Made by a program: the position numbers and the translations under genes
Part shown: positions 13,778 through 62,029 of the stretch, one piece after another
Layout of the letters: the number at the start of each line of letters is the position of its first letter
Numbering within the stretch: position 1 is the stretch's first letter
Notes under the pieces: generated by a model
What the model was told of the DNA's origin: nothing
Seen by the model: the letters and a program-made list of their open reading frames with translations, nothing else
The model's database searches: none
Assembly (NCBI RefSeq): GCF_008831285.2
Contig: NC_045147.1
Span: 14,052,854-14,116,853 of the forward strand
From: Nymphaea colorata
Taxonomy: Eukaryota > Streptophyta > Magnoliopsida > Nymphaeales > Nymphaeaceae
Direction of reading: 5' to 3'
DNA: 64,000 nt

Positions 13778-13779
13778 CG

Positions 13780-26053: not shown

Positions 26054-26058
<5 letters not shown>

Positions 26059-26106
<48 letters not shown>
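26059..26106. repeat. (TA)n microsatellite
   Basis: About 48 bases of uninterrupted TA in a part of unit 1 that has no counterpart in unit 2. Confidence 0.9.
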
Positions 26107-26108
<2 letters not shown>

Positions 26109-26691
26109 CGATTTAATACAGTGGCAATGAAAGAGAGGGATCAGCATTGTTTTGGAAGCATCTGGCAGATTTTTTTCCAAGGTGGTAGTTGGCGAAACCA
26201 CCACGAGTTAAAGTTTTTTGTAGTCGTATGGAGTCGTTGTTCTACCATTATGTGAAACTTTTGACAAAACTTGTCGAGATCTTGTTTCTGTGAAGCGTGG
26301 AGACGGCCATGGATGAAGTTAGAGCAGGTGGAATCAATCGTCTTCTAATCCGTAAGAAGGCAGAAAGGATAACCATGATCGACTGACATGATCAGAGTAG
26401 GGCCGCCCCCCCATCACATGAAACGATCACCATCACACTGTAGAATTCATAAGAAATTGGTTCCGGCAGTCGGTACGATCAGAGTAGGCCCACCCCAATC
26501 ACATGAAACGACGACCACCACACTACAAAATTAATAAGAAATATGGATCGGATAGTAGATATACATTGCATGCATGTTTTCTCTTTTGAGAGTCGCTCTA
26601 TCTGCTAAGAATGCATGTATGTCTCTCCTTCGATAGGCTCACTTAAGTGCGGAGTCAGGATTTTATCTTTAGGGAGAGGAATAGTCCTATA

Positions 26692-26933
26692 TAGGGGTGA
26701 ACAAACCGACTCGTTAAAGCTCGGCTCGTGAACAAGTTCGAGCCGAGTCATTTAGTTAACGAGTTGTTTAAATAATCAAGTTGAGTTCGATCTCAACACG
26801 TAACTGTCGAGCTGGAGCTCGAGCTGCTTCCATCAAGCTATTCTCGAGCTCGAGCCGAGTTTCGAGGTTTCATTTCTCGAGCCGAGCTCGAGCTGACTGA
26901 ACTCGAGCTCGACTTAACTCGTGTTCGCCCCTA
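26692..26933. mobile_element. hAT-type MITE, copy in unit 1
   Basis: Terminal inverted repeats TAGGGGTGAACA and TGTTCGCCCCTA (one mismatch) enclose 242 bases rich in CTCGAG/GAGCTCG. They are flanked by GTCCTATA (26,684-26,691) and GTCCTACA (26,934-26,941), an 8-base target-site duplication with one difference. The 8-bp duplication and terminal sequence fit hAT-derived MITEs. No coding capacity. Confidence 0.75.
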
Positions 26934-29416: not shown

Positions 29417-29607
29417 AGTGAGGCAGATGGCGCACTCCGGGGTCGCGCCCGCGAGCTCCACTCCGGACGAGTACACCAGCGCCGGTGAAGCTGGAATGGC
29501 GACAGTGGCAGAAGCGGCGGGCTTGGTTGACTCCGACGGGTCGTGAGCGGCCTCCACCAGCGGGCGGCCGCATGGATGGCGAGGCTGCAAGCGAGCGAGC
29601 AAATGAG
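29417..29607 (-). pseudogene. RING-H2 (ATL) gene fragment
   Basis: About 190 bases match the middle of the two RING-H2 genes (transmembrane region to the first RING cysteines), with a deletion of about 14 bases and substitutions that shift the frame. It begins exactly where direct-duplication unit 1 breaks off (29,413) and ends where the foldback arm begins (29,609). At two diagnostic places (TCCGGACGAG and GGGCGGCCGC) it agrees with the 20,768 copy rather than the 13,274 copy. It is not functional. Confidence 0.85.
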
Positions 29608-30488
29608 TGATGTTCTTCTTCGAAGGAGAAGCTTCTTTCCACGCATTTCCACTGTTTGCATCCATTCCTGTAGTTTTCCCTGTGGAATTATCGCCGTAGC
29701 TTTTGAACCCATTAAATTGTTGATGTTCTTCCTCGAGGGAGAAGCTGCTTTACACGCTGCATTCTAAAAAATGACTGCTTTACATGCTGCTGGGCAGCTC
29801 AAGAAGCAAAGCAAAACCATTTTAGTCATTTTTTGGGCAGTTCAAGAAGAAGCAAAACCATTTTACTCATTTCTCCCTCCATTCATTCTCTTCAGTCCTG
29901 CCGAAACAGCTGGACTCCGCCTTTTCCCGGCGTCGGAGTCCGACGGACGTGTGGGGATATTGGACGGAATGATGAGGTGGACTTGTGGGCCCCGACAAGA
30001 GGCAGGTTTTCTTTAACTGCCCAACAAATGACTAAAATGGTTTTGCTTTGCTTCTTGAACTGCCCAACAGCGTGTAAAGCAGTCATTTTTTAGAAAGCAG
30101 GAGCGTGTAAAGCAGCTTCTCCTTCAAGGAAGAACATCACTCAATTCCGGTTCAAGAAAATGTTCCTGATTATAAAGTCACATTGGTGACAGCTAAGATG
30201 GTAAAAGTACATTTTTTTTTTAAATATTGTTTATAATTCTTTAAAGAATGACCTCACTTAATTTTCACGAAAACTGTCTTACAAAGGCTTGAAGACGAAA
30301 AGCTCACGCTGCAATTTTTTTTTTTTTAAGATTACTTCTACCACTAAATTATGTTCCTGTCAATTTTTTGTTTGCTAACAAAAATTTTACTTTAAGTCAG
30401 TATTTGACATTTTTTTACGTGAAAATTAGACAATACTGATTAATGTATGACATTTATTTAATTGAAAATAATAAAGGAAACTTCAATC
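29608..30488. mobile_element. Foldback-like element between the two duplication units
   Basis: The left arm 29,609-29,860 (direct match to about 370-640) and right arm 29,988-30,488 (inverted match to 1-658) face each other around a spacer of about 125 bases. The left arm is truncated at its outer end, where the RING fragment is joined. No transposase is present. Reading frames in the arms (for example 29,771-30,016) have no recognisable domain. Confidence 0.65.
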
Positions 30489-32266
30489 CTATCAGCCTCC
30501 ATTAGATCTTTTCTCATATACACCCATAAAAGAAAAAAAAAAAAGGGCTAGTGTAAACCCCAAAACAACCACCATGAAACCATGGCTCTTACATTTCTGC
30601 ACTTTGCATATATTCACTCAATGTTAGTTGGTCACCTGTAATCTAAGAAAGAAGTCATCCGCACGGTTTTCTTGGCATATCACCTTCGTTAGTGACTTAT
30701 GTTCTCTTTTTCTACTTCAAAAACATTTTAAAAAAAAATCCCAACTACTGCACACATGAATGTTGTTTAAAAAACAACAAAAATATGAGATTTAATGTAG
30801 TTTTTCACCATGGAAGGCCACCATCGGCCTTAAGGATAGATGGGATGAGATTTGATATTTATACTCTTTGTTTTTCATAATCTCTAGAGATTTCATTTTT
30901 TTTTTTGCAACTCCCAAGTCAACGCCTCCCCTTGTTGATAACAACACTATTATTATTTTGTTTGGTGTATTTATCTCCATGGATGTAATTTCCTTATGGT
31001 TCATAATATGATGGCTAACAATAATGACTTTCCTTTTATTGGGAAGGTCCTATTTGATAATGTTAGATATTTCGCATACACAAACTTAAAGACATTTGAA
31101 AAGTCCAAGAGATACTTTCAACTAATCTTTTTTTTTTTTTTTTTGCAGTGTCAAATTGATGACCCTCCTTGTTGATAACAATGCCATTATGATTTTTCTT
31201 GACTTGTTTACCTACACAGATGTCATTCCCTTATAGAACACAATGTTATTTTTAATAATAACAACCTCCCTTTTGTAGTGAAAAAATCTTGTTTTGTAAC
31301 TTTAATTACTTTGCATAATGCCTTGTATGTTCATCCTCCCTCAAACTAGAGGCTGTATTTGAAAGTCCAAGTTGTCCTGGAAAAGTTTGGGAAGATTGAT
31401 CGAGCTATTACATTGTTGAACAAGCCCCCATTTAGAGGCCATCATTGAACCCTAAATCTTCTTCATCAAATGTTTATCTTTATCCATCCTTGCATTTTTC
31501 ATCGTAACTTCATAATCACTTTAAGATTAAGATTAATTCATTTTGCATGCACCATGTAGGGATCATCTTAATTCGATGTCATGCTAGAAAACATAACAAA
31601 TGACATAAGTAAGAGGTTTAACATGACTTTTTGCCACACAAGGCTACCATCGACCTTAAGGATTGATAAAGTGAGAATTGATACACTTTGTCCCTTTGCA
31701 AGAAACTTTAATATTTTTCGTTTTTGTTTTTGTAATGGCAAGTTGATGACCCTGCTTATTGATATCAATGTTATCATTATTTTTAATGACATTTTTGCCT
31801 CGATATATATTATTTTCACAAGTTACATGAGTTAATGCTTACACGAGTTAACACTAAACAAGTTAACCCCTAAACCAGTTAAATGGGTTAAACACACGAG
31901 TTAACACTAAACAAGTTAACGCCTAAACCAGTTAAATGGGTTAAACGAGTCGAGTTCAATCTTGATTTTGTGTAGTCGAACTTGAGTTTGCTATAAAGAG
32001 CTCGAGCTCTAGTTTTTTGAGTCGAGTCAAATAGAGCTGGCTAAGCTCATGCTCAACTCAACTCGACTCGAGTGCAACCTTACCTAGGCACTATCAAGGT
32101 CTGCTCAAGTTTGGAGAAGTCAAGCCTGGCTTATATCCTGCCCGCAGCCCTACTTAATCCCTAGGCTTCCACACAGTTATAATTTAACCACATCATTAGA
32201 TGCCCTTACACATGTGCCCCCACATTGCATCAGAGGGCACATGCGAATGCGATAACTGCCCGGAGA

Positions 32267-32373
<107 letters not shown>

Positions 32374-34715
32374 AAGATATATTTGGGATCCTGAAAACAG
32401 ATTATATTGGGTAGATCGACTTGGAAATTTTTTTGTTTTGGTATTTCCGGAATATAAATGTATGGATTTAGCAACGAGAACTGTGGTGGGGAGGATTTTT
32501 GTATTTTGATGCAATCACAAACCCTCGGCATGGTGTTATATGGTGTCAAGTTTGGTATCAATTAGCAAGTTATCAATAACCGTTAGGCAATTAGAAATAT
32601 GTTCAAATATCTATATGTTTAACCTCCTTCAACTTTAATGTTTAATTAGGAGAAAACTGCATTACCTCCAAAGTTCCGGCTTAGCTGAGTTGGTTTACAG
32701 TACATCATTCAACTAGGGAAAAGAATAACATACTAAGACATGATTCTTCAACTTGGAATATCACCTTAAGCAAATTAACTATGAGATTGAATTGTAACAG
32801 AAGAGGGAGTTGGTGCAGGGTGAATCGACCTCTCTCAACAACTGCAGTAACTCACCACACCGGGGAAAATGTAAAATAAGTTTTTCATGGGGAGTCCATT
32901 TGTGAGAGTTGAATAAGAGCTGAAGAGACGGCCATCTCCCAATGCAAATTTAGAATAAGATGAAGCATGACGTACATTTTGTCCGTAACCGTCCTTTTTC
33001 ATGAGCCTGAAGTCTTTGCAATGTCAAGAATAGAACCATACATTCAATCATAATTGAGTGCCCGATTCAAGGGCAGAGACAGGTCCCATTTCATGTCGTG
33101 AACAAACTAAGCCGCTGATTTTTAATACATCGGATTATTTTTCTGATAAATTCAGCAACCTATAGCAATCATGGCGTAGAGGGTGAGATTTCCGAGGGCC
33201 AGGGAGACGAAGAAGTAAGCCATTTTTATCATGTACCTTGTTCTTCTTGTCTGTTCATGAGACTTGACTTCTTCCTAGCGTTACGAGCCAGGGAAAATAC
33301 ATTTTCACAGCCCGGAGCCCTGTTTGATGGCCTGGTGCAAATCAAAAACGCCCTTCACCCGAAGTAATGCACTTCATTGAAGAAGCGCAATACCAATGGA
33401 ATCCAGGTTTTATTTTCCCAAAAAAAGAAAGAAGAATTACGAAATCTTGATGTCCAAATCCATGAAAAAAGCGCTTCAGGGATCATGTGTGGATCTAGTG
33501 GAAGGCCGTGAGTATTACCGGGACTTGTCGGCCTTGTGGCCCTGTTTGTTTCGCAGGAAACGGATGCATTTTCCCGAGAAAAGGGCCGTCTTTGTGGCAG
33601 CAGGTAACGTCCCACAATGTGCGGTCAGCCCACGGGATATTGACCTGTCAAGCCTGGCCTACCTCTGCCTGCTCGCCCGTCGTCATCGTCGCCACTCGTT
33701 GTCACTGTTATCACCAGATTCGCCGCCATTGCCGCTCACCGATGCTGCCTGTTGGACTCCCCTCGAGCCGTCAAACTGAACCGAGAGTCGAAACTTACGG
33801 GCTGGGTTCATGCCGACCCGGCCTTGCCCGACCCAACCGGGCCGACCGACAAGTACTCGGGTCGAAACCGGGCAGACTTCTAGCGGGTTGGGCCAGCTCG
33901 ATGGCCAGCCATAAATTACAAAGCGACAATATTTTTCAGTTCTTTTATTGTTTACTTAAGGAAGACCATTTTCACTGTAAACTTCCTCAAACCATGTTAT
34001 TGTGCTTTCAAAGTTCTAGCTCTAGCTTGCTTTGGGACATGAATAGACTTATGGTGCATTTTTCATTGAGTGTCTCATTTGCCATTGTTTGTAGGAAACT
34101 GTATGAAACTTAATCAGTCGTAGGTCCTCACCTGAAAGTATTATATCGCTCCGGTCCGATCACCTGAGTATAAGGTACAGCTGTTGGAAGCTGTGTTCTC
34201 ATCAACATAGAGTATACATGTATATATATATTCAAGTGGAGACGAAAGAGAGGGGATCAGCATTGTTTTGGAAGCATCTGGCAGATTTTTTTCCAAGGTG
34301 GTAGTTGGCGAAACCACCACGAGTTAAAGTTTTTTGTAGTCGTATGGAGTCGTTGTTCTACCATTATGTGAAACTTTTGACAAAACTTGACGAGATCTTG
34401 TTTCTGTGAAGCGTGGAGACGGCCATGGATGAAGTTAGAGCAGGTGGAATCAATCGTCTTCTAATCCATAAGAAGGCAGAAAGGATAACCATGATCGACT
34501 GACATGATCAGAGTAGGGCCGCCCCCCCATCACATGCACCAGACTACAAAATTGATAAGAAAAATGGATCGGATGGTGGATATACATGCTAACAGTGCAT
34601 GCATGTTTCCTCTTTTGAGAGTCGTTGTATCTGCTAAGAATGCATGTATGTCTCCCCTTGGGTCACTTAAGTGCAAAGTCAGGATTTTATCTTTAGGGAG
34701 CGGAATAGTCCTACA

Positions 34716-34943
34716 TAGGGGTGAACAACAAGTCGTCCGGCCGACTCGTGAACGAGTTCGAGCCGAGTCATTTGCTTAACAAGTTGTTCAAATAATCAAG
34801 TTGAGTTCGAACTCAATACGTAACTGTCGAGCTGGAGCTCGAGCTGCTTCCATCAAGCTATTCTCGAGCTCAAGCCGAGTCGAGTTTCGAGGTTTCATTA
34901 CTCGAGCCGAGCTCGAGCTCGACTTGGCTCGTGTTCACCCCTA
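34716..34943. mobile_element. hAT-type MITE, copy in unit 2
   Basis: Perfect 12-base terminal inverted repeats (TAGGGGTGAACA/TGTTCACCCCTA) enclose 228 bases. They are flanked by GTCCTACA (34,708-34,715) and GTCCTATA (34,944-34,951). It is the same insertion as at 26,692, so it was present before the direct duplication. Confidence 0.8.
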
Positions 34944-37900
34944 GTCCTATAACCACCACTAAATAAAATTTTTGAAAATTTTTAACTGAAGTTATCCTGA
35001 AGAGGCTGAAGCCCCTCCCCATTTCTCTTTTCCTGTTGAGTTCATGATTGTTGTGGGATCCAAGGTCACTCATATTTTCTCAAACTTTTTATAATGGTAA
35101 AACTAAAATTTTGAAAAAATTTAATCGGTAAAGGCCCACCTAGATATTTGTTGGCCTTGATCATGGAGCAATAGTCCATCGCGGTATGATTGGCAGCCAC
35201 GAGGTATGACATTCATCTCCAGCATCATCAGCTTGCCGGAGCAATGGGTGTTGTGCAGTGGCGGAGCCAAAAAAAATTTAATTGAAGATATTAATTTTAA
35301 AAGTACTAGACACTTCAATTGCATAGTAAAATGATGATTGAAGGCATCACTGTAAACAAAAGCACATGTGGCTCCACTTTGGGGTTGTCCACTGGCGGAC
35401 CAAAAAATATTTTGGCTTAGGAGGGCATTTGTGACGCACCGATTTGTAGATCAGAAAATAGTTATGTGGTATTAACATATGAATAGCAAATTTGTGGGTC
35501 TGTGTGGGCAATTGCCCACACTTGCCTGGGATGTCAAATTTTGAATTGAATTGGTAGGGAATCAGCAGTAGTGAAGCTATGTCGCAGCTGTTGTGGGCAG
35601 TTATCCACACCAGCTCTTTAAATTTGTTTATTTATATATTGAGATATATTTTTTTATATTGTTTTTACATATGAATGCTTCGTAAAAGTTTGAAATTTAA
35701 ACTAAAAGCACCCTTTAGTCAGATATTCCTGGTTCTACCACTGGGGATAAGGACTCAATCCGATGTGAATCACATTTTTTGAAAAATATGTGAAATATAT
35801 ATGTACGTATATACAATCTAATAAGAACCGCAATAAAAATGTCATCTTGCCACCCACGTATTATTAAATTGAACTGAATTTGAATCGGCTGAGTAATTCA
35901 GGCTAATTTTTGTGACACTGGTAGTAACGAGTCTCGTCCTTCAGTGTTTACAGATTTATTGTTTACCATTTTAATTTAACGGGATCAACCTTAAACGGAT
36001 CTGGAAGCTGATCTAAATATGAAACTAAATGGGGATCTCATGGTGGGTAAGATACGACTATTACATATAATATAACCTTGTCCAATCCTTACGGGTTTCG
36101 GACTTGGGCTCAAATTTCAGAAACCTAAACCACATATCAAATCCAAATCGGGATCCATTGGGCACCAGTGCTTGTCCAACTTGCTTGCGTTAAGCATGTC
36201 GCCAGCATTCATCTTGTACATGATCTAATACTTCTTTAAACCGGTGAAAGTTCAGCCATCAATTTGATTCATGTAAGCGATACTTCTTTAAACGAATGCA
36301 CGACACTTTATTTGATAGGTGTACTATTCTCCACCCAGTTTCCAATGCAACCCTAGACCGAAGCGGCAAAGAGAAAAAAAAAGGGGCTTCAGCCCTGGGT
36401 ATCTCTCATCTCCCTTCTATCCCCAAACTACTCCTTTGAACTACAAATGATGGATACACCACATTTAATTGATGAGTGAACTACAAACTACGAAACTAGG
36501 TCAATACATCCAATTTGGATAAAACTTTTGATAAAACTGCTCTCAAAAATCACACACACACATATATATCTATATATCATGTATGCAGTACCCATCCATT
36601 TTGAACATTCCATATTCAGTTCCAAAGTCGGATTCAAATTCAAGTGTGTTAAGAAATTGGATTTAGCTCGTCAATTCGAATTCACATCCAGGTATAATAA
36701 TATGGGTTTTAGTATCTAATGCATCCGATAAATCCGATCTATTGGCATCTCTATCCTTAACTTTTTGTTTGGAGTGAAAGAGATGTGCATATATTGCTGC
36801 GGTTCCTTTCCCATCAAATCAAGAGATGCAAAAGATTGAGTAGAAAACGTCCAAACGAAGGCTTATGCTATGATTTCAAAAAATTACTCATGGCGTGACA
36901 ATCACGAAGTAAGGAGAACAGATTACCAACGTTATTAGAAATTAAAGTGGAAGTTGTTGCATACATATGGGATCCTTGCGCACCAAAATGATGCTCAGTC
37001 TAATACTTTTTTATTTTTCAAATCAATTTAAAAATATTTTAAATAACTTTATGCTGATACGAGCCGGGGCACATCCGTCGAGTCGATACTCCGTATCGGA
37101 GGTTTAGCCCATAAAGTTACGCTACAGATCACATCGTATCGGAGGTTTCCTTACTACCGTTCCGATACGATATAGGCCGATACAGGTTTATATATATATA
37201 TATATATTTTAATCAGTTTAAATTCTTTCATCGCGCGTCGGGTTGTTACCCGACCCGCGGCCCGACGTCCATCCCTGGTTGGAGACCGTGCGATGCAATT
37301 CAAATTAATAAGCTTGGCTGGCGCGATTGCTTGGGTATCCATTTGGCGCAATTTGTTTTCTGTGATTCTATCTCACAGAGGATATCTTTGTAGCTTCTCT
37401 GCTGTCGAGGTATGTTCTGGCTGTAGTTTAAATTTCTTGAGTTTTTATGTTTAGTTCATGGGGATCGCAATCGTATTCTTTTACAGGAGAGTGATTCGAG
37501 TCAAGGGTTGGCTTTTGTAGATGGGATTCTCGAAACCGTAGTCCAGATCAAACCTCTGTGTTTTGTTCTTGATATAAACGTTGTTGGTATCATGTTCCTG
37601 ATGATGGCCGAAAGTGACACGAGAGGCTTGTATTCTTGTGTTTTTGCTTGCGTCCCCAGTTTCTTATTCTTTTTCGTTTCGCTCTGTGCGTACTCTTCCG
37701 TTGGCTTTTTGCTCTTAGAATTTGTGCCCGTTTGTCCCTTTTTTGCAGATTATCATTGCCTTCATACACTTTCTTTTAATGGCATATGGTACCTGTGCTT
37801 ACTTTGGATTTAGGTGTTCTGCCAAGGTCTTATTCGTGGAGTTGCTTTTTCATCCATTAACGTTGCTGCTCTTTCTTCATCTAATGCGTCTTCTCTTGTT

Positions 37901-38429
37901 CTGCTGTCATATGTAACTCTAGATTATGAAACATGTTACTTTACATGTTCTTGTTGTGCTTTTTCTGGTGCATATATTATAATAGGTATGATTTTAAAAT
38001 TTTAGGCCAATTTTTTGCATTTTGATGTCATCATCATTTCTATGTAGAGCCAGAGAATACTGGAGACTTCAATTTAAGAGAGTTTATCTTGTCAGTGTAG
38101 TATGAAGTGGATTAGAAGCAAGTTAGTCCAAGATGTATACAGTGCATTTTTATGAAAATTAGAGAAAATGGGTCTAATTCCTAAATCCTGAGATGTATAT
38201 AACAACATGTAATTTCTTCTATTTTTTTGGCATGTCTCTGAATGTGATATACTCCTAATCATTGTCACAAAAAATTCGTATTTTTTATTGTTTTTTTATT
38301 TTTTTATAATTTTCGGGATTTATTAAATGTTTTAAAAAATTTTAAAAATTTGCCGAGATTTTTCCGAGTTATTCCCGAGATATACAACTTTTGGTATTAT
38401 ACTCGAGAAATTCCTCACCGTATAATACC

Positions 38430-41523: not shown

Positions 41524-43360
41524 ATATAGGCATATTGCCATACCCATGTTTCTGAACTTTCCTTACCTGGACCTGCATCATCTTACTAGTACCCGAGCCC
41601 ACGCCTGTACCCATGTGATTTAGATTAATTTGCACTTTTTATAACAGCATTCATAAACCGCTTTATATTATGTGCTCATAGACTTTACCGCCCTCCTCAT
41701 TTAGAAATAAAGAAATGAATGAAATTAAAGTTGAGGGTTTCTCAACTTCACAAGGATCAAGCTGGAAGCCTTTCATTTCAATGTAATGGATTTCCTGTAG
41801 ACCGGACTTCTGCTCTAGCTTCTGTTTTAAAAAATAGGATTTGCCAGTATCTGTGAACACTTTTTATCTTGCACTGATCTTCCTCATCTTAATTGTTGGA
41901 TGTTCTCACATTTTGTTTCTTCCATCTTCTTGTTTTATTTGTCATTTAATTTCTTAACCCAGATTCATTTGTTTCTCCAGCAGGGTGAATTAAGCCTGGA
42001 TGAAGGATTTTCAGGGAGATGGCTGCCATGTGCTGAGAACATGTCGGAAGGGCAGACTAGTAAGCAGAGTGAAGAAAAAGTTAAACATCTAGTTAGTTTA
42101 CAATTAAGGAGTAAATTCTACCATGTTGAAGATGGTTTAGTGACCTTATTAAGAAACTGCCTGGAGTCAGATACCAAAAATCTATGCAGCATAATTTCTA
42201 GACATGTTGACCACTTTCAGAGTACCAAATCAGAGGATTCAGGTTGGGGTTGTGGGTGGCGCAATATTCAGATGATGAGCTCACACTTAATAACTGAGAG
42301 GAAGGATGCTAGAGAAGTTCTATTTGGTGGCTTAGGATTTGTTCCTGATATTGCTTCACTTCAACGATGGCTTGAAATTGCTTGGGAAAGAGGCTTTGAC
42401 ACCGTTGGTGCAAGGTCATTCCAGAACAGAATATATGGATCAAGCAAATGGATTGGAACGACTGAATGTGCTGCCCTTTTTCGTTCTTTTGGCCTCCGGG
42501 CAACGATAGTTGATTTTGAATGTGAGAAAGTCAATGGTTGTGGCAAGAAAAGATTTATGAAGCAGGTTCATGGACCAATGGACAAGTTTGTCACAAAATT
42601 TCACAAGACTACATCTCAAACAAATGGAAGCGAATACGCAGGTGCTGAACATTCTGAATCTCACATTCGTCCTCCATATTGTTTCCAAGAGAAAGATTCA
42701 ATATCTGACACTTGCGAAAGCTATAATAGTACTGGTGACCATCATGCCCTTGTTGACTGGGTTTGGAATTATTTTGCTAGCGAGAATTATTGCAGCTCAG
42801 GCGGTGTTTCTGTGAGTAAGAAGACGTAAGTTATTCTGAAAATTTATCTCATTCCAATATAGTTGTGGTTACACACACCTGCAACATAAGCAAAAAGTAT
42901 TTTGCTTATACGATCTCTGGCATGATACACGTTCCATTTAGACATAATCATGGAAATATTTTCTGACCGTTATCACACTGAAGTTGTGAGCAGGCCTTTG
43001 TATTTCCAGCACGATGGACACTCCAGGACTATCATAGGGATTCAAATTCATAAAAGTGTGGAAAAGATGTCAAGAGAATACAGCTTGCTGGTTTTAGACC
43101 CTTCTCAGGTTCAAATCTTGTTTATCTCTCTGTACTTAATTTCAGAATTCATGAATGTATGTAGGTCTTCTTTAGTGTTAGACCCTTCTTCGGTTAAGAT
43201 CTTATAAAGCTTTCTGTACTTGATGGCATTATTTCAGAAATATACAGGGTTCATATAGTCCTTGGACTGAATAAGAGGATTATGTGGAATGATTATGAAA
43301 CGTCTAACAGACTTGATTTATAGATTACGAAGTGCCACATTTAAAGTTACTTTTTCCACA

Positions 43361-48037: not shown

Positions 48038-48660
48038 TTTCTCTTCTCTCTCCTCTCGTTCGTTCTCTCTTCTTCACGGGACAAGAAAACCAGATCGGCG
48101 ACAGGCTGGCGGCGACCATCGACCAGAGCTTGACGAAGATGCTTTCGTTGCAGGTGGGTTCAATGTTTTCTTTTTTGATATGTTGTCTTTTCCTTCTCTC
48201 TTCATCTGGCTCTATTCCGGCGAAACCAGACAGGCGATGGACCGGAGGACTCTCCCTATGTCGCTGTCTCCCTCTCTCCCCACTGGAGAGTCTGTAACAC
48301 TTTGCATAGAGGGTTTCAGAGAGCTCTGGTCATGATGGCGCTCATGAACGTTGGCCGGTCGGGCCGCTGCCGGAAGGGGAACGGCGGTGGGCGTCGGGCG
48401 TGAAGAGAGAGGGAGAGGAAAAGGAAAGTCCCACCCTCTGGTCCCGAGCCCCCGGCCCGATTCTTAATGTTTCATAATCGGGCCGGGCCAGGTAGGGGCC
48501 AGATTATGAAGCCCGGTACCCGACAGACCTCGGGCCCGGCCCGAAAAATTAAATCAGAGGGATCTTTCTTGTCCAGAAAGAAAGACGATTGTTAGAGTCG
48601 GAGTTAATTCTAATTTCTTTTGCTCCGCTTTTCGGACCGCTGAGCTAGAGGAAGAAAATG
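48038..48660. other. Upstream region of PBG1
   Basis: C/T-rich DNA, then a GC-rich block at 48,340-48,545 (GGGCCGGGCC, GGGCCCGGCC) resembling 45,930-46,060. A 125-codon frame (47,958-48,335) overlaps repeat-like DNA and shows no domain. The PBG1 core promoter should lie at about 48,550-48,660, but I see no clear TATA box. Confidence 0.35.
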
Positions 48661-48664
48661 GAGG

Positions 48665-48712
48665 TCTCTCTCCCTCTCCCTCTCCCTCTCCCTCTCCCTC
48701 TCCCTCTCCCCT
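48665..48712. repeat. (CTCCCT)n hexanucleotide repeat in the presumed PBG1 5' UTR
   Basis: About seven tandem TCTCCC units, ending about 50 bases before the PBG1 start codon. Pyrimidine-rich leaders are common in plant housekeeping genes. Confidence 0.9.
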
Positions 48713-48764
48713 TTTGTAGCCTTCTGTCCCTTTTCGTCTAAAATCTGCTGTTTTGTTTCAGAAC

Positions 48765-51700
48765 ATGTTCGTAAACCCTTCAGGCGAATGCGATTCGAAA
48801 TCTGCCGCCGATTCTGAAAGAACACTGTAAGGTTCCCTCTCCTTCGTTTTCTTTTTGTGCGTTAACGGTCATGTATCGAGATGCAATAGATTCCTGATAC
48901 GTTCATGATCTTTGGTGTCTCTAGTTTGTGCTTGTTATTTTCCGTTCGTCTAGGGAAACTTCTTGGATATAGATGTTAACACTTCGATGATACCGCGATG
49001 CCATGAAATCCCTATTTCTACTTTGGGGTCTTAATTCGAGATCCGCTTCATCGTTCATTTGTTCTAGTTATGATTGCAAAGGAAGGTTGAGATTTTCCTT
49101 GTTGAGCCAGAATGTATTGTTTTACTTTCAGGATGGAAATCCTATGCGACATTTGTGGTGTTGTTGGCATAGGGAAATGCTACTGTTTAGATAATTGTCT
49201 TTCCGAGGTCTTACCTATTTTAGGAAGCCGCTTGAGAGTGGAATATTCAGTGCTTCGAAAAATATGTTCGCGAGTTACAGAAGTACATTTTTAGGATTAT
49301 TGGTTTTTTAGCATGAGAAGTAAAATTTCACGTGATAGCTTATATTTTCATAATTGACAACTCGCATTTAGTATAATAGCATCACGATGTTTATTTTGCT
49401 TTTAAATTAGAGAGGTCAAAAGTAGCACTATGTATTTCATAACTTTATAAAACGCTTTGCAGTTTCAAGAGAACTTTTAGTTGTCATAGTATTTCTACTA
49501 ACTTCTGGATCAGTGTTTTACATCTACCTGCACACCGTCCTTTTTCTCGATTGAGTTTCCTATATTCCATTCAATTTCTCTCTCAGAACGTTAGTTTTTG
49601 TTTCTTGGGTTAAGGAAATATGGATATGTAGAGAAGCCAAATACTTGGTTGTACACTGTATCTTGATCGTCGAGGAAACATACATTAGAGTTTTCATGCA
49701 CTTCTTAGGTCTAAGATGGTTTGAACGTGTGAGGGTGGTAAAATTTGTAAAAGTGTTTGATTATGCCAACATAAATAGTTGACTCAGATGGTGCACATCC
49801 GAGAGATGTTATATTGCTTACATTGAAAAAAGGTGGCTCGTTTGTGTGTGTTTCTTATTTTTGTAGTCGATAATATGAATGGCAATTATAATACATGATG
49901 TATTAGGAATTTAGGATGATAATGCAATCAGTTATTGACCAAATTAGTTTTGTAAAACATCATAGAATTAGGAGATACAGTTTTTGCAGAAAGTTTTTTT
50001 TATCAATCCATCTCAGCTTTGCTGATTTTCCGCTCTTTACAATCTCTGAATTGTATTAACGCTTTTCATTTGAACAGATATTGCTGTCTTGTTGAAACAT
50101 TCTCATTGGGTGGATGTACATTTTCTTTCTAATATCGTTTAAGATATTGTTTGATCTAACGGTTGATGAATTCCATATTTTTGCTAAATGTTGATGAAGA
50201 AAGGGAAATGAAAAAATTTTGCCTTGGTTTTTTGATATTTGTTTGCTTGTGCAATCTTTGGGAACCCCATATGTAGAGGGGTATTCCAATGCTGATATGA
50301 GCTTAAACTGAGAGAATGAATGTTCCACTTATTTGAAATGATTACAGATCTTCTGTCCGATACCCAGCAGCTTGTTATCACTTGAATCAGAGGACCAAAG
50401 GAAAATATCTAGCACCTTTCTTAGATTCATAAAGTCTATAAGACTTCATCGAGCATGCTCTCTGCTTAACACCCTTTTCCTGGAAGATAATGTGGTTCAA
50501 GAAATTTTTTATGCGCTCTTTGGACAGTTATTTATTATGAAAATTTATTGGAAGACAATTTCAAATTTTCTTCAGACAATTGACTCCAAAATGCTAAACG
50601 AAAACATGAGGAGCCACTTTTGCCTTTTGTAGAAACACACACCAAGATGGAGAGAAAGAGAAGGAACACACAATATACGTGGAAAACCTCAAAGAGGTGA
50701 AAAACCACGAAGAAGCTCTAACCTAGGTGCCCAACCGCAACCCTAGGAGAGAGAAAATCTTATATCACTTAATCAACAATTACACTATAAGTGAGATTAA
50801 ATAAGAGGGAAAAACGCCTAGGGTACCGAGCCACTCTCGGTACCCGTGCCCATGGGACCGGGTCTGGATCCAGACCCGGTTCCCTACACATGATATGTTA
50901 ACACTCCCCCTCAAGCTTGGCATACATGTCAAACATGCCTAGCTTGCTTACATTTTTCTCGAATTGAGATGTACATAAGGCTTTGGTTAGAACATCTGCA
51001 ATTTGATCTTCAGACTTCATATAAGGTAGGATCAACTCCTTTGAATCTATGCGTTCCCGTATGAAGTGGCGATCAATCTCCACATGTTTAGTTCTGTCAT
51101 GCAAAACGGGATTATTCGCAAGATTAATTGCAGACTTGTTGTCGCAGTACATCCTCATCTTCTCTTCTGTTTCAACACCAATATCTGCTAGGAGAATCTT
51201 TAACCATAACATTTCTGTAACTCCCATAGCCACAGCCCTGTATTCAGCCTCAGCACTGGATCTAGAGCAAACTTCCTGCCTCTTACTTCTCCATACAACA
51301 AGGTTACCTCCCAGAAAGATGCAGTACCCTGTGGTAGACCTCCTAGTATCAGTACATCCGGCCCAATCTGCGTCAGAGTATCCTTCAATATTAAGTTGGT
51401 CTTGCTGAGTATAGAGTAATCCTTTTCCTGGGTTATTCTTTAGGTACCCCAACACTCTTTCTGCACTCCTCCAGTGACAATCAGTAGGAGCATGCATAAA
51501 CTGACTCAACACATTCACAGCATAAGTAATATCAGGGCGAGTAAGAGTAAGATAGATGAGCTTACCAACCAGCCTCTGATACCGCCCTTTTCCTTCTTCA
51601 TCTAGGATGTTGCCAGTTTTGATGCTTATCTTTGTACCAGACTCCATTGGAGTTTGAAAGGGTCTGCATCCAAGTTTGCCTGTTTCCTTTAGAAGATCCA

Positions 51701-54700
51701 GAGTGTATTTCCTTTGGCTCATAACCAGCCCTGTCTCTGACCGTGCAATCTCTATCCCCAGAAAGTATCTTAGTTTACCCAAATCTTTAAGATCAAATTC
51801 AGCAGCTAACTTCTCCTTCATCTTCTTTTTCTCTTCTTCATCGTCACCTGTGACTATCATATCATCAACATACACAAGAAGAAGACTCACCAGGCCATCT
51901 CTCTGCTTAATGAATAGGGTGTGATCACCATTTCCCTGTTTGTATCCATTTGTCTTCATCACTATCCTCAGTCTTTCAAACCATGCTCTAGGAGACTGCT
52001 TTAATCCATACAAAGCTTTCTTAAGATGACAGCATTTTCCGCTTTGAACATATCCAGGAGGCATACTCATATAGACCTCTTCTTCTAGATTGCCATTTAA
52101 GAATGCGTTCTTAACATCAAGTTGATCCATGCTCCACCCCTTTTTCACGGCAAGTGCTAATATGACCCTCACAGTTTTCAGTTTGGCAACAGGGGCAAAG
52201 GTTTCAAGATAATCAATACCATATTTCTGGCTAAACCCCTTTGCAACAAGCCGAGCCTTATACCTTTCCACAGTACCATCTGGTTTGTACTTCACATTGA
52301 ACACCCACTTTGAACCAACTAAATGAGTCCCTTTGGGAATATCCACAACTTCCCAAGTGTCATTCTTTGCCAAGGCATTCATCTCCTCTGTCATGGCCTG
52401 TAGCCATTTAGGATCCTCTCTAGCATCTTCCACACACCTGGGAATAACAGACTTAGACAAGGATGTTATAAAGCATTTGTAATCCTTACTCAATTTCGCA
52501 TAAGAGACAAATCTCTGAATAGGATGAGAAGTGCAAGACCTGATGCCCTTGCGCAGGGCTATAGGAAGCTCTTCATTGATTAGACTTGGGTCATCCGGGG
52601 AGCTCACAGGATTGGGATTGGTTACATCAACATTTTCAATCACATCTGTCTTCTTCCTTCTGTACACCTGGCCAAACAAATGATCACGGGCTGTAGGCTG
52701 ATTATCATCAAGACCCTCGTCCATGTGACGGTCTCTATCATCTCTGACTGTGTCTGCCACACTTTCACTGGCCTTGTAATCCAAGAAATCCGTAAACTGA
52801 ATCAACTGATTTGAGGAATACTCTTCACTACTGTGTCCTAGATACTCCCCCTGAAGAGGATTCACATGAAAGTATGCCTCATGTTCATGGAAGGTGACGT
52901 CCCGGGAAACATAGACTTTAGAGGTGGTAGGATCAACACATTTGTATCCCTTCTGAGTGGAGGAATACCCCAGGAAGACAGCCTTGACAGACCGATGATC
53001 AAGTTTCTTGAGGGTGGGACTATGGTCATGAACAAAACAGACACACCCGAACACCCGAGGAGTAAGAGGCCAGGGATTCTGAGAAGGCCAAAGCATAGAG
53101 TACGGGGAATGGCCCTGCAACACACGGGTAGGCATACGGTTGATAAGGTGGGTACTAGTGAGAAGCGCATCACCCCAGTAGCGCTTGGGAACCTGACGAT
53201 GGAACAGAAGAGCCCGGGTAACATCAAGCAAATGGCGATTCTTTCGTTCAGCCACGCCATTTTGGGGAGGTGTGTAACTACATGACGTTTCATGGACAAT
53301 ACCCTTGCTCTTCAAGAAATCATCTAGGGATTGAGAGACATACTCTCGAGCATTATCGGTGCGAAAAACTTGGACAGACGTCTGAAACTGAGTCTCAACA
53401 AAGGCCACAAAATTTTTGACAATAACAGGAACTTCACTACGTTCTTTCAACAGATACACGAACGTACAACGGGAGTAATCATCAATAAGGGTCATAAAGT
53501 AATGAAAACCACGACAAGTGGGTACTCCCGAAGGACCCCAAACATCAGAATGAACCAAAGCAAATGGACGAGTGGTTTTATTGAATGAAATAGGGTACGA
53601 GGCCCTAACATGTTTAGCTAACTGACACACTTCACAGGTGAAGGAGTCCATGGAAACAGAATGAAACAAACTAGGAAACAACTTCTTAATCAATGGAAAC
53701 GGAAGATGACCAAGCCGCTCGTGCCATCGCATAATAGTAGATCTGTCTCCCATGCCTGACAACTGTCCACTAGTGGCTGAAATAAGAGCGGACGCAACCT
53801 GCACAGGCAGTCTGTAGAGTCCATCAATAGCCGAACCAATCCCAATCTTCTGCCCCGTCACCAAGTCCTGCAGAAAACACCGATCAGCAGAAAAGATCAG
53901 ATTACAGTTGAGCTCTTTAGTAATACTGCTGACAGATAACAAATTCACAGGAATATTGGGAACATGAAGAGCATTATGAAGACAGTATTTATTTAGCAAG
54001 GACAAACTCCCTTTTCCAGCCACAGAGATAGAAGAACCATCAGCCATAGATACACGTTGCTGCCCCGAAGACAATTTGTATTCTTGGAACATCTTAGGGT
54101 CCCCTGTCATATGATGCGTAGCACCACTGTCAACAATCCAATCACCATGTGAGGAATTACCTTGGTCACTAGTGGCCACGAGAGCTTGGGCTAACTTAGC
54201 CCCCTCAGACGTGGAAGTATCCTCCTGAGTAGTAGACAGCCGGCTGATATACGCTTGCAGTTCTTTGATTTGATCGGAGGAAAGCTTAGATTTGGCAACA
54301 TTTGAAGGACTACTCTGACTAGGCTCAGGCACAAAAGGACTCCGGCGGCTAGAAGGAGGACGACCCCGGACAAGCCGCCTCTCAGGATGAAGATCCCAAC
54401 AAAAATCAACAGAATGTCCTGATTTGTTGCAATGGCTACACCGCCGAACAGGACGCTGTCCAATCCCAGAAGCACGACTAACAAAGGCTGAAGGAGAACT
54501 CCCCTGACTGGTGTCAATATGCATCACCTGTCGACGCTGTTCCTCAGATTCCACACGGGCATACACCTCTTCAATTCCGGGGACCTCGTCACAATTGAGA
54601 ATTTGGCTCCTAATGGATTCAAATTCATCGCGTAAGCCTCCGAGGAAAAGAAACGTCCGATCCATCCACTCTTTGTCCCAGTACAAGGCATGATCAGACC

Positions 54701-57700
54701 CACAGTGCCAGTCATCATTCACATGGTAGTCAAGTTCCTCCCACTTAGTCTTTAGGGCTGCAAAGAAAGCGGCTACAGACAAGTCACCCTGTTTAAGAGA
54801 GTATATGCTACGTTTGATTTGGTACGTACGCAATACTCTCTTCTTACGGCCATACATCCGTGCAAGCACAGTCCACATGTCGTAGGCAGTCGATTTACGC
54901 AAGATCAAAGGCTGAATATCTGCAGAAACAGAACTAATAATCCATACTTTAACCTGACTATCTTCCAACGTCCAAGTAGCCCATCGCGGATCGGTTTTTG
55001 AAGGTGCAGGCTTCTCCCCAGTGATGTAGGGCAGGCGACCACGACTGGTTATCCCAATTTCTAGGGCAGCCGACCAAGAGAGATAGTTATCCTTGTTCAG
55101 CCGGATGGAGGTGACTTGAACAGGCAAGATCTCGCTCTTGGTATTGCTGCCCGAGTCTAGGGCATCATCGAGCTTGAGGGACATCTCCTCGGCCATCACA
55201 ACCACCAAGGAGAAAGAATACCCAGCACCAGAGACGACAAACAAGAGGCAGCGGCGCTGAACGGCGGCGGTGCGGGAGAGAGCGACGGCGGTGGGCAGCA
55301 GTGGCGCGGGACGGCGGCGGCGCTGAAGTGGGCGACGGCGGCGCTGAAGTGGGCGACGGCGGCACGGGACGGTGGCGGCGCAGCTGGCAGAGGAAAAAAA
55401 CGGCGGAAACACGACTATCACACCAACGATCTCTCACGCGTTGGCTCTGATACCATGTAGAAACACACACCAAGATGGAGAGAAAGAGAAGGAACACACA
55501 ATATACGTGGAAAACCTCAAAGAGAGGTGAAAAACCACGGAGAAGCTCTAACCTAGGTGCCCAACCGCAACCCTAGGAGAGAGAAAATCTTATATCACTT
55601 AATCAACAATTACACTATAAGTGAGATTAAATAAGAGGGAAAAACGCCTAGGGTACCGAGCCACTCTCGGTACCCGTGCCCATGGGACCGGGTCTGGATC
55701 CAGACCCGGTTCCCTACACATGATATGTTAACACCTTTCATTTACTTGTTTTCTTTCTTTTTTTTTTCCAGTATGCTTATGAGTTATGGTAACATAATGC
55801 ATTATTTTCCCCCTAATTTTCTTCTTAAAGGTTCTGTTCTTACATTTCAATCCTAATCTCAAATAATTTTTTTCGTTTAAACAGTAAGCTTAATTCAATC
55901 ATCACCAGATTATTCTATACAAAACCTCATATTGAGCAATGTATTTAGCTCTGGAATGATGAATTGCTGCCAGATCAGACTAGCATAAGTGTGAATTATG
56001 CACTTTTTGTCTTAACTGAGAACTTGGACTTGGAATTATATTCGTTGTTTTAGGAGTCTCTTGGTTATTCAATTTGATTGAGGCCTGATCAGATGTCATT
56101 ATCATGTTTGTGCCACAATTTATGATTTTGATGATATCATTGCTTGTTAGACAGGAAAGATGTTTTTACAGCTAAAACATAAATTTCATGATTCACATTT
56201 TTTCATCTACCTTACAAATGGATCTGGTACTTGTTGGGATTATAATGTGCAGCATCTTCCACGTTGTTTGTAATGTTATTGACTAGTAAGATAAGTGGCT
56301 TATCTTGCTGAAATATTCTCTATTTCTTTCTGAAATTCTGACTTTCAGGTATCCATATGTCACTGGTACATCCGTTGTTGCTGTCAAATACAAAGATGGA
56401 ATTCTCATGGCTGCTGATACAGGAGGTCAGTTTTTGAACATGTTAACATTAAAATAAATTTCTGAAGTTTGACTTGAGTGCTGTTTCATCTTCTTATACA
56501 GTGGAAGACAATAGCTGCACTTTAGACAATGCTTAGTGTTCAATGGTTGATGATGACTTCTGAACTTGTTTATTTCTTACTTGTGCTTAGTCATATTTGA
56601 TACAAAAACCATCAGAAGATGACATCCATATTGCTTATGTTTTTGGTTACTTAAACAAGTTTGGTATTGTACTCGAGTCTTATTCTTTGGGACCACGTTT
56701 ACTCGAATTGTAAACCATTGATTTATTGGATTTTGTTAGTCCCAACAGGGTATAATAATTAAGATGGAAAAGAAACTTTTTTGGTATACAAGGGGCCTAA
56801 GATATTTTCCCTCTAAAAGATAAATGGAAGATTTTTGGATGCATTGTAAATTTGGATATGAATTCTATCACCATCTTCCAGTTGGATAGGTTTTCTTATG
56901 ATTTCATATCTATGAATTGTTGACAGGTTCTTATGGATCTACCTTGCGCTATAAGAGTGTTGAAAGAATGAAAGCAATTGGTAAACATTCGGTTTTGGGT
57001 GCAAGCGGTGAAATAAGTGATTTTCAGGAGATCTTGAGATATCTTGATGAGCTGATGTATGTATTCATTCTGAGGAATGTCTCAGTCCTTGATAGGAGTA
57101 GATACATTCAAGTAGTGAGTCTTGTAAAGTTAGCACTTGTTTATGCATATTTTCTCTACTCTCGTTAATGGTTAATATATCTGCAGCTTGTATGATAACA
57201 TGTGGGATGATGGGAATTCATTGGGTCCTAAAGAAGTACACAGCTATCTTAATCGTGTGATGTACAGTAGACGCAACAAATTTAATCCCTTGTGGAATTC
57301 ACTTGTTCTTGGAGGGGTGAAAAATGGCCAGAAATATCTTGGGATGGTAAAAAAAAGTGGTTTTCTTTTTATTTAAGTTGCATCGTTAAAGTATGCATCA
57401 ATTTGGGTATGAATTCTGTGGTTTCCCACAATTTTCATTTTCCAGGTTAGCATGATTGGGGTACATTTTGAGGACAATCATGTTGCAACTGGATTTGGAA
57501 ACCATCTTGCCAGGCCTATTCTGCGTGACGAGTGGCGTGAGGATATGAGTTTTGAGGAAGCTGTTAAGCTTCTTGAGAAATGCATGCTTGTTCTTCTATA
57601 CCGTGATCGATCAGCTATCAACAAGATTCAGGTGGTTATTCTTTGTTAGCTGATTTTTTTTCCTATTTCTACCTATGTAGCATGCAAGGCATGTTTTATC

Positions 57701-57850
57701 CTTAAGGTTATGGTGTAACTAGTTGTTTTCTTTCAGATTTCCCAAGTCACAGAAGCAGGCTTCAATATCTTCCAACCGTATGCTTTGAAGACGTTTTGGG
57801 GCTTTTCTGCATTCGAGAATCCATCAAAAGGTGCTGTTGGGACATGGTAG
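48765..57850 (+). CDS. PBG1: 20S proteasome subunit beta type-4 (beta7)
   Basis: Six coding exons: 48,765-48,826, 56,349-56,425, 56,927-57,056, 57,187-57,346, 57,446-57,631 and 57,737-57,850. All have GT-AG borders and continuous phase, giving 242 residues, close to the known plant length. The propeptide-like N-terminus leads into YPYVTGTSVVAVKYKDG at residue 22. GSYGSTLRYK, GEISDFQEILRYLDEL, DDGNSLGPKE and HVATGFGNHLARPILRDEW follow, all signatures of beta7 (PSMB4/PBG1). In the 20S core this subunit is structural and non-catalytic. It sits in the beta rings and its C-terminal arm holds the half-proteasomes together. Intron 1 is 7.5 kb because it contains a Copia element in antisense. Without that element it would be about 2.4 kb. 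Exon borders and consensus residues are intact, so the gene should still work if the intron is removed. Confidence 0.95.
50623..50627. repeat. Target-site duplication of the Copia insertion (left)
   Basis: CCTTT immediately before the left LTR. The identical CCTTT follows the right LTR at 55,734-55,738. Confidence 0.95.
50628..50903 (-). repeat. 3' LTR of the Copia element
   Basis: 276 bases. In the element's sense the pol frame ends inside it: the last Cys codon and the TAA stop are the first bases of the LTR (TGTTAA). It differs from the other LTR by lacking an AG dinucleotide and by one A/G change in the CCACGAAGAAG/CCACGGAGAAG stretch. Confidence 0.95.
50898..55421 (-). CDS. Copia gag-pol polyprotein
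   Basis: An uninterrupted frame of 1,507 codons. The likely start is Met76 (55,196; MAEEMSLKLDD), because residues 1-75 are low-complexity Arg/Pro repeats encoded by leader DNA. Order of domains: Gag (about 95-320), zinc knuckle CSHCNKSGHSVDFC (328-341), aspartic protease with DSG at 431-433, integrase zinc-binding His/Cys region (about 566-603), integrase core Asp626, Asp689, Glu725 with D-35-E spacing, reverse transcriptase (about 1,020-1,265) with YVDD at 1,184-1,187, and RNase H (about 1,347-1,480; YSDADWAG, SSAEAEY). The protease-integrase-RT-RNaseH order defines the copia superfamily. All catalytic motifs that I can check are present. No frameshift separates gag from pol. Confidence 0.97.
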   Translation of the reverse strand: MIVVFPPFFSSASCAATVPCRRRPLQRRRRPLQRRRRPAPLLPTAVALSRTAAVQRRCLLFVVSGAGYSFSLVVVMAEEMSLKLDDALDSGSNTKSEILPVQVTSIRLNKDNYLSWSAALEIGITSRGRLPYITGEKPAPSKTDPRWATWTLEDSQVKVWIISSVSADIQPLILRKSTAYDMWTVLARMYGRKKRVLRTYQIKRSIYSLKQGDLSVAAFFAALKTKWEELDYHVNDDWHCGSDHALYWDKEWMDRTFLFLGGLRDEFESIRSQILNCDEVPGIEEVYARVESEEQRRQVMHIDTSQGSSPSAFVSRASGIGQRPVRRCSHCNKSGHSVDFCWDLHPERRLVRGRPPSSRRSPFVPEPSQSSPSNVAKSKLSSDQIKELQAYISRLSTTQEDTSTSEGAKLAQALVATSDQGNSSHGDWIVDSGATHHMTGDPKMFQEYKLSSGQQRVSMADGSSISVAGKGSLSLLNKYCLHNALHVPNIPVNLLSVSSITKELNCNLIFSADRCFLQDLVTGQKIGIGSAIDGLYRLPVQVASALISATSGQLSGMGDRSTIMRWHERLGHLPFPLIKKLFPSLFHSVSMDSFTCEVCQLAKHVRASYPISFNKTTRPFALVHSDVWGPSGVPTCRGFHYFMTLIDDYSRCTFVYLLKERSEVPVIVKNFVAFVETQFQTSVQVFRTDNAREYVSQSLDDFLKSKGIVHETSCSYTPPQNGVAERKNRHLLDVTRALLFHRQVPKRYWGDALLTSTHLINRMPTRVLQGHSPYSMLWPSQNPWPLTPRVFGCVCFVHDHSPTLKKLDHRSVKAVFLGYSSTQKGYKCVDPTTSKVYVSRDVTFHEHEAYFHVNPLQGEYLGHSSEEYSSNQLIQFTDFLDYKASESVADTVRDDRDRHMDEGLDDNQPTARDHLFGQVYRRKKTDVIENVDVTNPNPVSSPDDPSLINEELPIALRKGIRSCTSHPIQRFVSYAKLSKDYKCFITSLSKSVIPRCVEDAREDPKWLQAMTEEMNALAKNDTWEVVDIPKGTHLVGSKWVFNVKYKPDGTVERYKARLVAKGFSQKYGIDYLETFAPVAKLKTVRVILALAVKKGWSMDQLDVKNAFLNGNLEEEVYMSMPPGYVQSGKCCHLKKALYGLKQSPRAWFERLRIVMKTNGYKQGNGDHTLFIKQRDGLVSLLLVYVDDMIVTGDDEEEKKKMKEKLAAEFDLKDLGKLRYFLGIEIARSETGLVMSQRKYTLDLLKETGKLGCRPFQTPMESGTKISIKTGNILDEEGKGRYQRLVGKLIYLTLTRPDITYAVNVLSQFMHAPTDCHWRSAERVLGYLKNNPGKGLLYTQQDQLNIEGYSDADWAGCTDTRRSTTGYCIFLGGNLVVWRSKRQEVCSRSSAEAEYRAVAMGVTEMLWLKILLADIGVETEEKMRMYCDNKSAINLANNPVLHDRTKHVEIDRHFIRERIDSKELILPYMKSEDQIADVLTKALCTSQFEKNVSKLGMFDMYAKLEGEC
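55310..55375. repeat. 21-bp tandem repeat in the Copia leader
   Basis: GGCGGCGCTGAAGTGGGCGA units, about 2.5 copies. They encode the PLQRRRR repeats at residues 24-37 of the longest reading frame, which is one reason to prefer the downstream Met76 as start. Confidence 0.8.
55443..55455 (-). other. Primer binding site (initiator-Met tRNA)
   Basis: In the element's sense TGGTATCAGAGCC follows the 5' LTR with no gap. This is the standard plant Copia primer site, complementary to the 3' end of tRNA-iMet. Confidence 0.95.
55456..55733 (-). repeat. 5' LTR of the Copia element
   Basis: 278 bases and the partner of 50,628-50,903. Its transcription would run leftward, antisense to PBG1. TG...CA termini are intact. 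Confidence 0.95.
55734..55738. repeat. Target-site duplication of the Copia insertion (right)
   Basis: CCTTT, identical to 50,623-50,627. Confidence 0.95.
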
Positions 57851-60219: not shown

Positions 60220-62029
60220 CTATACACGATCCTGTGCTGGGCGCCCGATTAATCTGCACTGATCAGGGAGCAACGAGGCAACAACATGACCATTCATCGG
60301 AAGAAGCTCACCATCAATTCCACACCCACAATGAGCATTTTTTCCCGGTGTAAGTCGTAAAGATTTTACCTGCATCACCATTATTGTTCACAATAGCTTC
60401 ATAATTCTGAAAATAGCTCAAGCTAGTCACACACTTTCCACCAAATTACAGTTGGGAATAAGTTTGAATGAGAACCATACCTGTACATACTCGACATAGG
60501 GCAGTGAAAGGTGTTTGCCGAATTGCATTAACAAAAAGAATCTTAATAGTTTTAGCCTTCCATTCCCATGAACGAGCAACAAATCCAGTGCCTTGTCGTC
60601 ATGCTCTGCTTTTGGTGCAAGCACTTGAGAATTCAAATTTTGCACTGTCTTGCACGCATGGTTGCAGAGCAATACACCAAGAAACTCCCCTTTCTTAACA
60701 ACCCACTTTTCTTCTTGTTTTGGCACTTCATCTTTCACCGTTCCCCTTTCTATGTCATCATCTTGCCCAGACAGCTTGAATGCGTCATCAGGAATCCAGT
60801 TGGATTCTGCATACCATTTGGGTTCAGCATCCCACTTAGGTTCTGCATCCCAGATTGGCCCTGGATCAGACACTGTTGATGAAATATCTTCCCTTTCATT
60901 TGCTGCCACAGTTCCCCAAGCCCCACGAGAATCATTTGTTGAAATCAAACCAGCCCAGCCTTTATCTGTCCTTGATTTTGATCTGGTCCTTGGCCAGTTG
61001 GGGTTTGCTGATAGGTGCGGTTGTGGATGAAGAACTTCTTCTGGTTCATGTATGCTGTTGTTTCTGCCAGAAGACATGCGCTTCATTTTGGGGTCTATAC
61101 CACGAACATAGTCAGAAGGTTCATTGCCTGCAAGAGTGCTAGAAGTTGTATCCAGCTCCTCTGAAATTCGACTGGGAGTCAAGATTGAGTCAATACTTGA
61201 CAAACTTGATGCCCTGTGCATCCCCTCTGTCGTAGTCTTTTTCATTGTGTCTGGAAAATATGAAGAATCTAGAGGTTCTCTGTTCGCTGGCACAGTTACT
61301 TCATCTTCTGGTGTGGCCTTTGATACAGGAAGATATTCCACCTCGAAACTATACTTTGGCAAACAGAAAAATTTAAGAACTCCCGCCACAAGATAACGAA
61401 GAGGACCAAAACGCTTCTGATACTTCTCAGATAGCTCCAATACTGCACCAGGAAAAATAAATATAACTGCCAGGGCAGAGACTTTACATGCAAAGTAAAC
61501 ACCAGCCTGTGGATGAATGACCATGCAACATTTGATTGGGACAACAACTATAATCACCAAGCTTGTGACTTAACATGTACCTACTTCAAGACAAGTACGG
61601 AGCAATTCAGTTTTTAGAAGGGCATTGAAGATGTTTAGTAAAATTTCTATCTGTATTCAGCTTCGACCCCAATACGAGAACATATTTCCACCTCCAAGGA
61701 CATTACATCCAAACCTCAAAAAAGGTGCTCCAATCAAACCTAGATTTAAAACTTCTGAACTTCTTTTGAACGATTGCAGATGGTAAATTTAAGAAATGGG
61801 GAAAAAAGCAAATACATGGGCACATTTTGTCCAGAGAAGCAAACATTCAGTGTGAGACAGTCCCACAAAGCCACGTATCAAAAGAATACATGAAATCAAA
61901 ACACAAGCGCTTTTGGTTAATGAAATTACCATCACTAACAAACCCATAGTATGAAACAGTTATACCAAAGTGTATCACACCAGTTTGCATCCACTCCACA
62001 GCAAAAACATCTGCAGCTGTAAGCCCCCC
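60220..62029 (-). CDS. LCBK1: Sphingoid long-chain base kinase, last three exons (partial)
   Basis: Three minus-strand exons: 62,029-61,930, 61,442-60,481 and 60,369-60,220. They have GT-AG borders and consistent phases (split codons G|TA and 0), giving about 403 C-terminal residues. Exon one reads GGLTAADVFAVEWMQTGVIH. The second holds VLELSEKYQKRFGPLRYLVA, a long acidic Ser-rich insert with WDAEPKWDAEPKW repeats typical of plant LCBK1, and LLCNHACKTVQNLNSQVLAP. The last has CGIDGELLPMNG and ends LLPDQCRLIGRPAQDRV. The family (diacylglycerol/sphingosine kinase fold) phosphorylates phytosphingosine-type bases to their 1-phosphates, linked to stomatal and cold signalling. The ATP-binding GGDG exon and the N-terminus are not found up to 64,000, so they lie beyond the window behind an intron of at least 1.97 kb. 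Confidence 0.93.

Follow-up and report, generated by a model that had tools for sequence, protein, structure and literature searches.

The window analyzed here, a 64,000-nucleotide (nt) stretch of the Nymphaea colorata genome, contains the plus-strand gene PBG1, which encodes a proteasome beta subunit, and, in one of its introns, a Ty1/Copia retrotransposon of 5,106 bp. The element occupies positions 50628-55733 on the minus strand, antisense to the gene, and is flanked by perfect CCTTT target-site duplications (TSDs; left copy 50623-50627, right copy 55734-55738). An initial annotation of the window had reported a Copia element with this duplication at this place, long terminal repeats (LTRs) distinguished by a single substitution plus a 2-bp indel, a primer-binding site and a purine tract, and its anatomy turned out to be right to the base. 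Comparison of the 5' LTR (278 nt, 55456-55733, minus strand) with the 3' LTR (276 nt, 50628-50903, minus strand) recovers exactly these differences, one transition and one 2-bp indel. In each case, the 3' LTR is the derived one: it has undergone a C>T change at 50710 and has lost 2 bp, a loss private to it. The primer-binding site, TGGTATCAGAGCCA (55442-55455, minus strand), which we take to be of the tRNA-iMet type, adjoins the 5' LTR directly on its inner side, and the polypurine tract, GAGGGGGAG (50904-50912, minus strand), adjoins the 3' LTR in the same manner.

The open reading frame (ORF) at 50898-55421 of the minus strand, described initially as a frame of 1,507 codons, is indeed unbroken, but this count relies on a GTG start, which the ORF-finding tool accepted because its bacterial code admits it; from the first in-frame ATG (55196), the gag-pol frame comprises 1,432 codons (50898-55196, minus strand) and ends 6 nt within the 3' LTR. 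The 75 extra codons fall in the leader, a 259-nt segment with GC-rich tandem repeats (55197-55455, minus strand), and the related intact copies in the genome have frames of 1,429-1,433 codons. The ORF product matches Retrotran_gag_2, gag_pre-integrs, rve, SH3_retrovirus, Pol_BBD and RVT_2 at or above the respective Pfam cut-offs, and Retrotran_gag_3 below its cut-off; rve (617-718) precedes RVT_2 (1020-1260), i.e., integrase is located upstream of reverse transcriptase within a single polyprotein. The catalytic motifs that the initial annotation had attributed to the frame were all found: the D, D and E of integrase (D..D-35-E), the DSG of protease, the YVDD of reverse transcriptase and the D/E/D of RNase H, along with the CCHC motif, where protease and RNase H were recognized by motif alone. 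The integrase HHCC pattern, as typed, had no match in the frame, although H-x4-H and C-x2-C are discernible on visual inspection.

The assignment to Ty1/Copia thus draws on TG...CA LTRs, a TSD within the 4-6 bp range, the primer-binding site, the purine tract, the position of integrase before reverse transcriptase and the catalytic residues of protease, integrase, reverse transcriptase and RNase H. The element shares with plant Ty1/Copia elements the LTR termini, the 5-bp TSD, both priming sites and the single frame in the order gag-protease-integrase-reverse transcriptase-RNase H, and no departure from this plan was seen; the GC-rich leader of variable length is a trait of its own family. As a separate observation, the LTR begins, in element sense, with two long GC-rich hairpins, and folding of the 5' LTR is much more favorable than that of 200 shuffled sequences (z -5.86). 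A scan of viral contigs for the reverse transcriptase domain yielded 16 pattern matches and no relatives.

The host gene consists of six coding exons on the plus strand (48762-48826, with the ATG at 48765; 56349-56425; 56927-57056; 57187-57346; 57446-57631; and 57737-57850, the last coding exon), which join into an intact protein of 242 amino acids and are separated by GT-AG introns. The antisense placement of the element in an intact proteasome beta gene, as originally proposed, is therefore upheld. The best match of the protein in PDB is 7qve_u, "proteasome subunit beta" (E 2.5e-127), followed by chains named beta type-4 in the human numbering (E 3.9e-59 and weaker); we take 7qve to be the spinach proteasome and 7qve_u to be the plant beta7/PBG1 subunit. 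A search of the assembly with the protein yields six matches on the PBG1 exons themselves and, elsewhere, a single stretch of 25% identity, and the DNA flanking the insert has no second match in the assembly on either side, nor was an empty allele found there; accordingly, PBG1 appears to be single-copy. The interrupted intron (48827-56348, plus strand) measures 7,522 nt, compared to 2,411 nt without the insert and one TSD copy, in agreement with the reported tripling of its length. It lies between the first two listed coding exons and in this sense is intron 1, as annotated; however, an ATGGAG at 48658-48663 is a possible PBG1 mini-exon that would make it the second intron. Just past this ATGGAG, there is a (CTCTCC) repeat of 7.2 copies (48668-48710), so that the site may represent either such a mini-exon or an upstream ORF.

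The element is a member of a numerous family. A search of the genome (407.8 Mb in 783 contigs), in which the best 40 of 1,078 first-look candidates were scored for the LTR and the best 40 of 1,639 for the reverse transcriptase, identified at least 39 other copies that are at least 98% identical to the reverse transcriptase of the window element; with 40 candidates scored per search, the copy numbers represent minimum values. For comparison, we chose the 20 copies with the most similar reverse transcriptase, a choice that favors young copies; together with the window copy, they form a set of 21. All 21 have the same primer-binding site and polypurine tract, and all have 5-bp TSDs, in one case (L011) only after the LTR was allowed to start with TA instead of TG. 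The frame is unbroken in seven, including the window copy, and the nearest of the 20 differs from the window element at 31 of 5,105 sites. The leader varies from 259 to 425 nt, with the window copy having the shortest one; these lengths assume a 278-nt LTR throughout and are a few nt off where the LTR length differs.

Several observations bear on the age of the insertion. Both LTRs of the window copy carry a private T>G change (G at 55561 and 50731, in element sense) that occurs in none of the 20 other copies and, therefore, they descend from one cDNA. The LTR substitution, a C>T change in a CCG context, and the 2-bp loss are both derived and confined to the 3' LTR, and hence are post-insertional. 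At a rate of 1.3e-8, the LTR divergence translates into an age of 0.14 million years (My), with 95% Poisson limits of 0.004-0.78 My; at 7e-9, the estimate is 0.26 My (0.007-1.44), and at 1.5e-9, it is 1.2 My (0.03-6.7), where the rate of the host itself may differ from all three. A second clock is provided by 13 internal changes private to the window copy over 4,552 sites, which give an upper bound of approximately 0.22 My at 1.3e-8, given that some of these changes may predate the insertion. Of all private changes of this copy, 8 of 15 are C>T or G>A; those in the coding region comprise 8 nonsynonymous and 4 synonymous ones, which could reflect drift of the copy since its insertion.

The view of the element as very young thus holds only as a point estimate and has to be qualified by wide limits, which reach several million years under the slowest of these rates. 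Nor is the copy unusual within its family: its insertion is recent, but in 13 of the 21 copies, the window one counted, the LTR divergence is no greater than its 1 in 276, in a set picked for closeness in reverse transcriptase. In two copies (L010 and L015), the LTR pairs show no substitutions at all; the value for L011 was fixed by hand at one substitution owing to its altered LTR end. Together with the near-identical copies elsewhere in the genome, this distribution indicates that the window element is young but typical, an ordinary product of a recent family burst rather than an exceptionally young insertion.

The insertion sites of the 21 copies share a palindromic signal, WTN-TSD-NAW, which is strongest at the T and the A two bases from the TSD and to which the PBG1 site conforms. 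Relative to the TSD, T is found at -2 in 18 of the 21 sites and A at +2 in 19, and the next position outward is A or T in 20 of the 21 on either side. Inside the duplication, T as the first base and A as the last base are each confined to two sites. When the half-sites are pooled, T occupies position -2 in 37 of 42 (P 4e-14 against the flank composition, uncorrected for the number of positions inspected). Plant LTR elements are known to favor palindromic targets, and ANGTT-TSD-AACNT is reported for Tos17 of rice (PMC6911290); the family described here has in common with it the palindromic preference around a 5-bp TSD but differs in the consensus.

The PBG1 insertion is not unique in the family because a sister copy (L013:1507-6703, in G000 C10:16165418-16173318) also lies within an intron, in this case in sense orientation and in a DnaJ-type gene. 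The exons flanking this copy (174-265, 7303-7374 and 7662 onward in L013) join in frame and match DnaJ chains with E 5.8e-10. The call is based on the three joined exons: the Pfam match of the first exon by itself is below the cut-off, the 80-amino-acid ORF taken alone has no PDB match, and the place was not among the matches listed in a genome-wide DnaJ_C search. This was the sole host gene to emerge from a screen of the flanks of the 20 copies, which contain 592 ORFs of at least 40 codons, 155 of them of at least 70. Among the longer ORFs, 150 of 155 were compared with Pfam, 30 singly and 120 as a set, ten of which were repeated singly; of 318 shorter ones (38-69 codons) at 12 of the 20 loci, 130 were compared, without a match to any Pfam family. 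Retroelement domains adjoin at least 7 of the 20 copies (L010, L012, L014, L015, L016, L023 and, just under the cut-off, L019), and the set scan gave further retroelement matches, to three families. The screen is insensitive: a PBG1 exon used as a control (56350-56424) scored E 0.00019, under its cut-off. The two intronic copies out of 21 are, accordingly, a lower bound, and the screen proves neither avoidance of genes nor a preference for introns; another copy, L028, may be intronic as well, judging from the T-skew of its flanks.

Taken together, the observed element structure, signature of a single event, family burst, target preference and intact host exons lead us to the scenario of a recent, ordinary retrotransposition of a member of a recently amplified Ty1/Copia family, with PBG1 affected little or not at all, to which we assign a probability of roughly 0.87. 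Under this scenario, a family member would have been transcribed and then reverse transcribed, and the integrase would have inserted the cDNA into the T-rich PBG1 intron at a palindromic site of the preferred type, producing the 5-bp duplication. The PBG1 pre-mRNA would be transcribed through the antisense copy, and the insert would be removed with the intron, probably with little or no consequence for PBG1. Read-through appears most likely because the terminator and splice signals of an antisense copy face the other way; there are two exact AATAAA motifs on the element's own strand and none on the PBG1 strand of the insert.

Several features of the sequence weigh against such a benign outcome and would fit, instead, an insertion that alters PBG1 output via intronic heterochromatin, premature polyadenylation or cryptic splicing. 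The element is full-length and lies in an early intron, the PBG1 strand of the LTR harbors AATAAA variants, and some splice-like sites in the insert outscore the real ones. In a rough scan based on splice-site frequencies, the donor of the interrupted intron at 48827 has a low score of -0.2 and the maximum among the five real PBG1 donors is 3.5, whereas the PBG1 strand of the insert includes four donors above 3.5, up to 4.6, compared with 2.6 for the best one in the host intron. The same strand of the insert has one acceptor that outscores all real ones (6.2), and the left junction creates an acceptor-like site (exon start 50633) with a score of 5.4, compared to 3.8 for the intron's own acceptor; the original intron already contains acceptors of 7.6 and 5.4. 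The fraction of T on the PBG1 strand is 0.243 in the insert versus 0.387 in the host intron, and intron recognition might therefore be weakened. A precedent comes from RPP7 of Arabidopsis, where transcripts stop in the 5' LTR of COPIA-R7, a retrotransposon in intron 1, unless this is suppressed by EDM2 (PMC7529245). Like the window element, COPIA-R7 belongs to Copia and occupies intron 1 of a functional gene, but the window copy is antisense and resides in a housekeeping gene. COPIA-R7 is presumably in sense orientation, as termination at its 5' LTR suggests, so that termination of this type is less likely, though conceivable, in PBG1, where the LTRs are antisense to the gene and lack an exact AATAAA on its strand. 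Furthermore, in a plant homozygous for the allele, hardly any loss of an apparently single-copy proteasome subunit would be expected to be tolerable. On balance, altered output of PBG1 seems unlikely, and it is quite improbable that PBG1 has come to depend on EDM2/IBM2-like read-through factors, with the proteasome supply tied to silencing of transposable elements (TEs) and the insertion segregating as an expression polymorphism.

The two remaining alternatives concern the insertion event itself. Many near-identical donor copies exist, and the LTRs could have been kept alike by gene conversion, either with each other or with such copies, in an insertion older than it appears; however, both LTRs share a base that is private among the 21 copies, which conversion between the element's own two LTRs would still accommodate, and the private internal changes set a bound close to the LTR estimate. 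Given the private base and the agreement of the two clocks, this explanation, which we regard as very improbable, was rejected. A high-copy repeat might also have been misplaced into the intron during assembly, but the perfect TSD, the private base common to both LTRs, the agreement of the target site with the family palindrome, flanks that match only themselves and the lack of any N in the window render such an artefact barely conceivable, and it was rejected as well. The preferred scenario remains that of a recent, ordinary insertion with little effect on the host gene.

Among the papers listed in literature searches, none describes this insertion or this family, judged by titles and the beginnings of abstracts. 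Comparable, recent Copia-dominated LTR insertions are reported for Nymphaea minuta (PMC13254204). In Arabidopsis, approximately 3% of TEs lie inside genes, 85% of these in introns, and long TEs are rarer there than in intergenic regions (PMC4417168). SMART of grasses, which is likewise an LTR element found in introns, and frequently so (PMC3281118), is only 292 bp long, whereas the element described here is a full-length coding Copia. The significance of the present case, a full-length element inserted antisense into a housekeeping gene that appears to be single-copy, is modest, and no established view is changed. Nevertheless, it is a clean, datable case in which copies of a Copia family that amplified recently entered introns, antisense in PBG1 and sense in the DnaJ gene, and it lends itself as a natural experiment on the role of orientation in the tolerance of long intronic insertions.

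Elsewhere in the window, positions 12182-22380 are occupied by a large nested inverted repeat with arms at approximately 12182-16779 and 17139-22380 and blocks that are 85-99% complementary. A tandem duplication extends over 22874-38202, with a block spacing of approximately 7.9-9.2 kb and blocks 88-99% alike. An ORF at 60427-61560 has a borderline match to YegS_C (E 4.1e-6; 27.1 bits, cut-off 27), and another one, at 41900-42829, encodes a Peptidase_C78 domain (E 4.5e-31) and is perhaps a gene for a UFSP-type protease.

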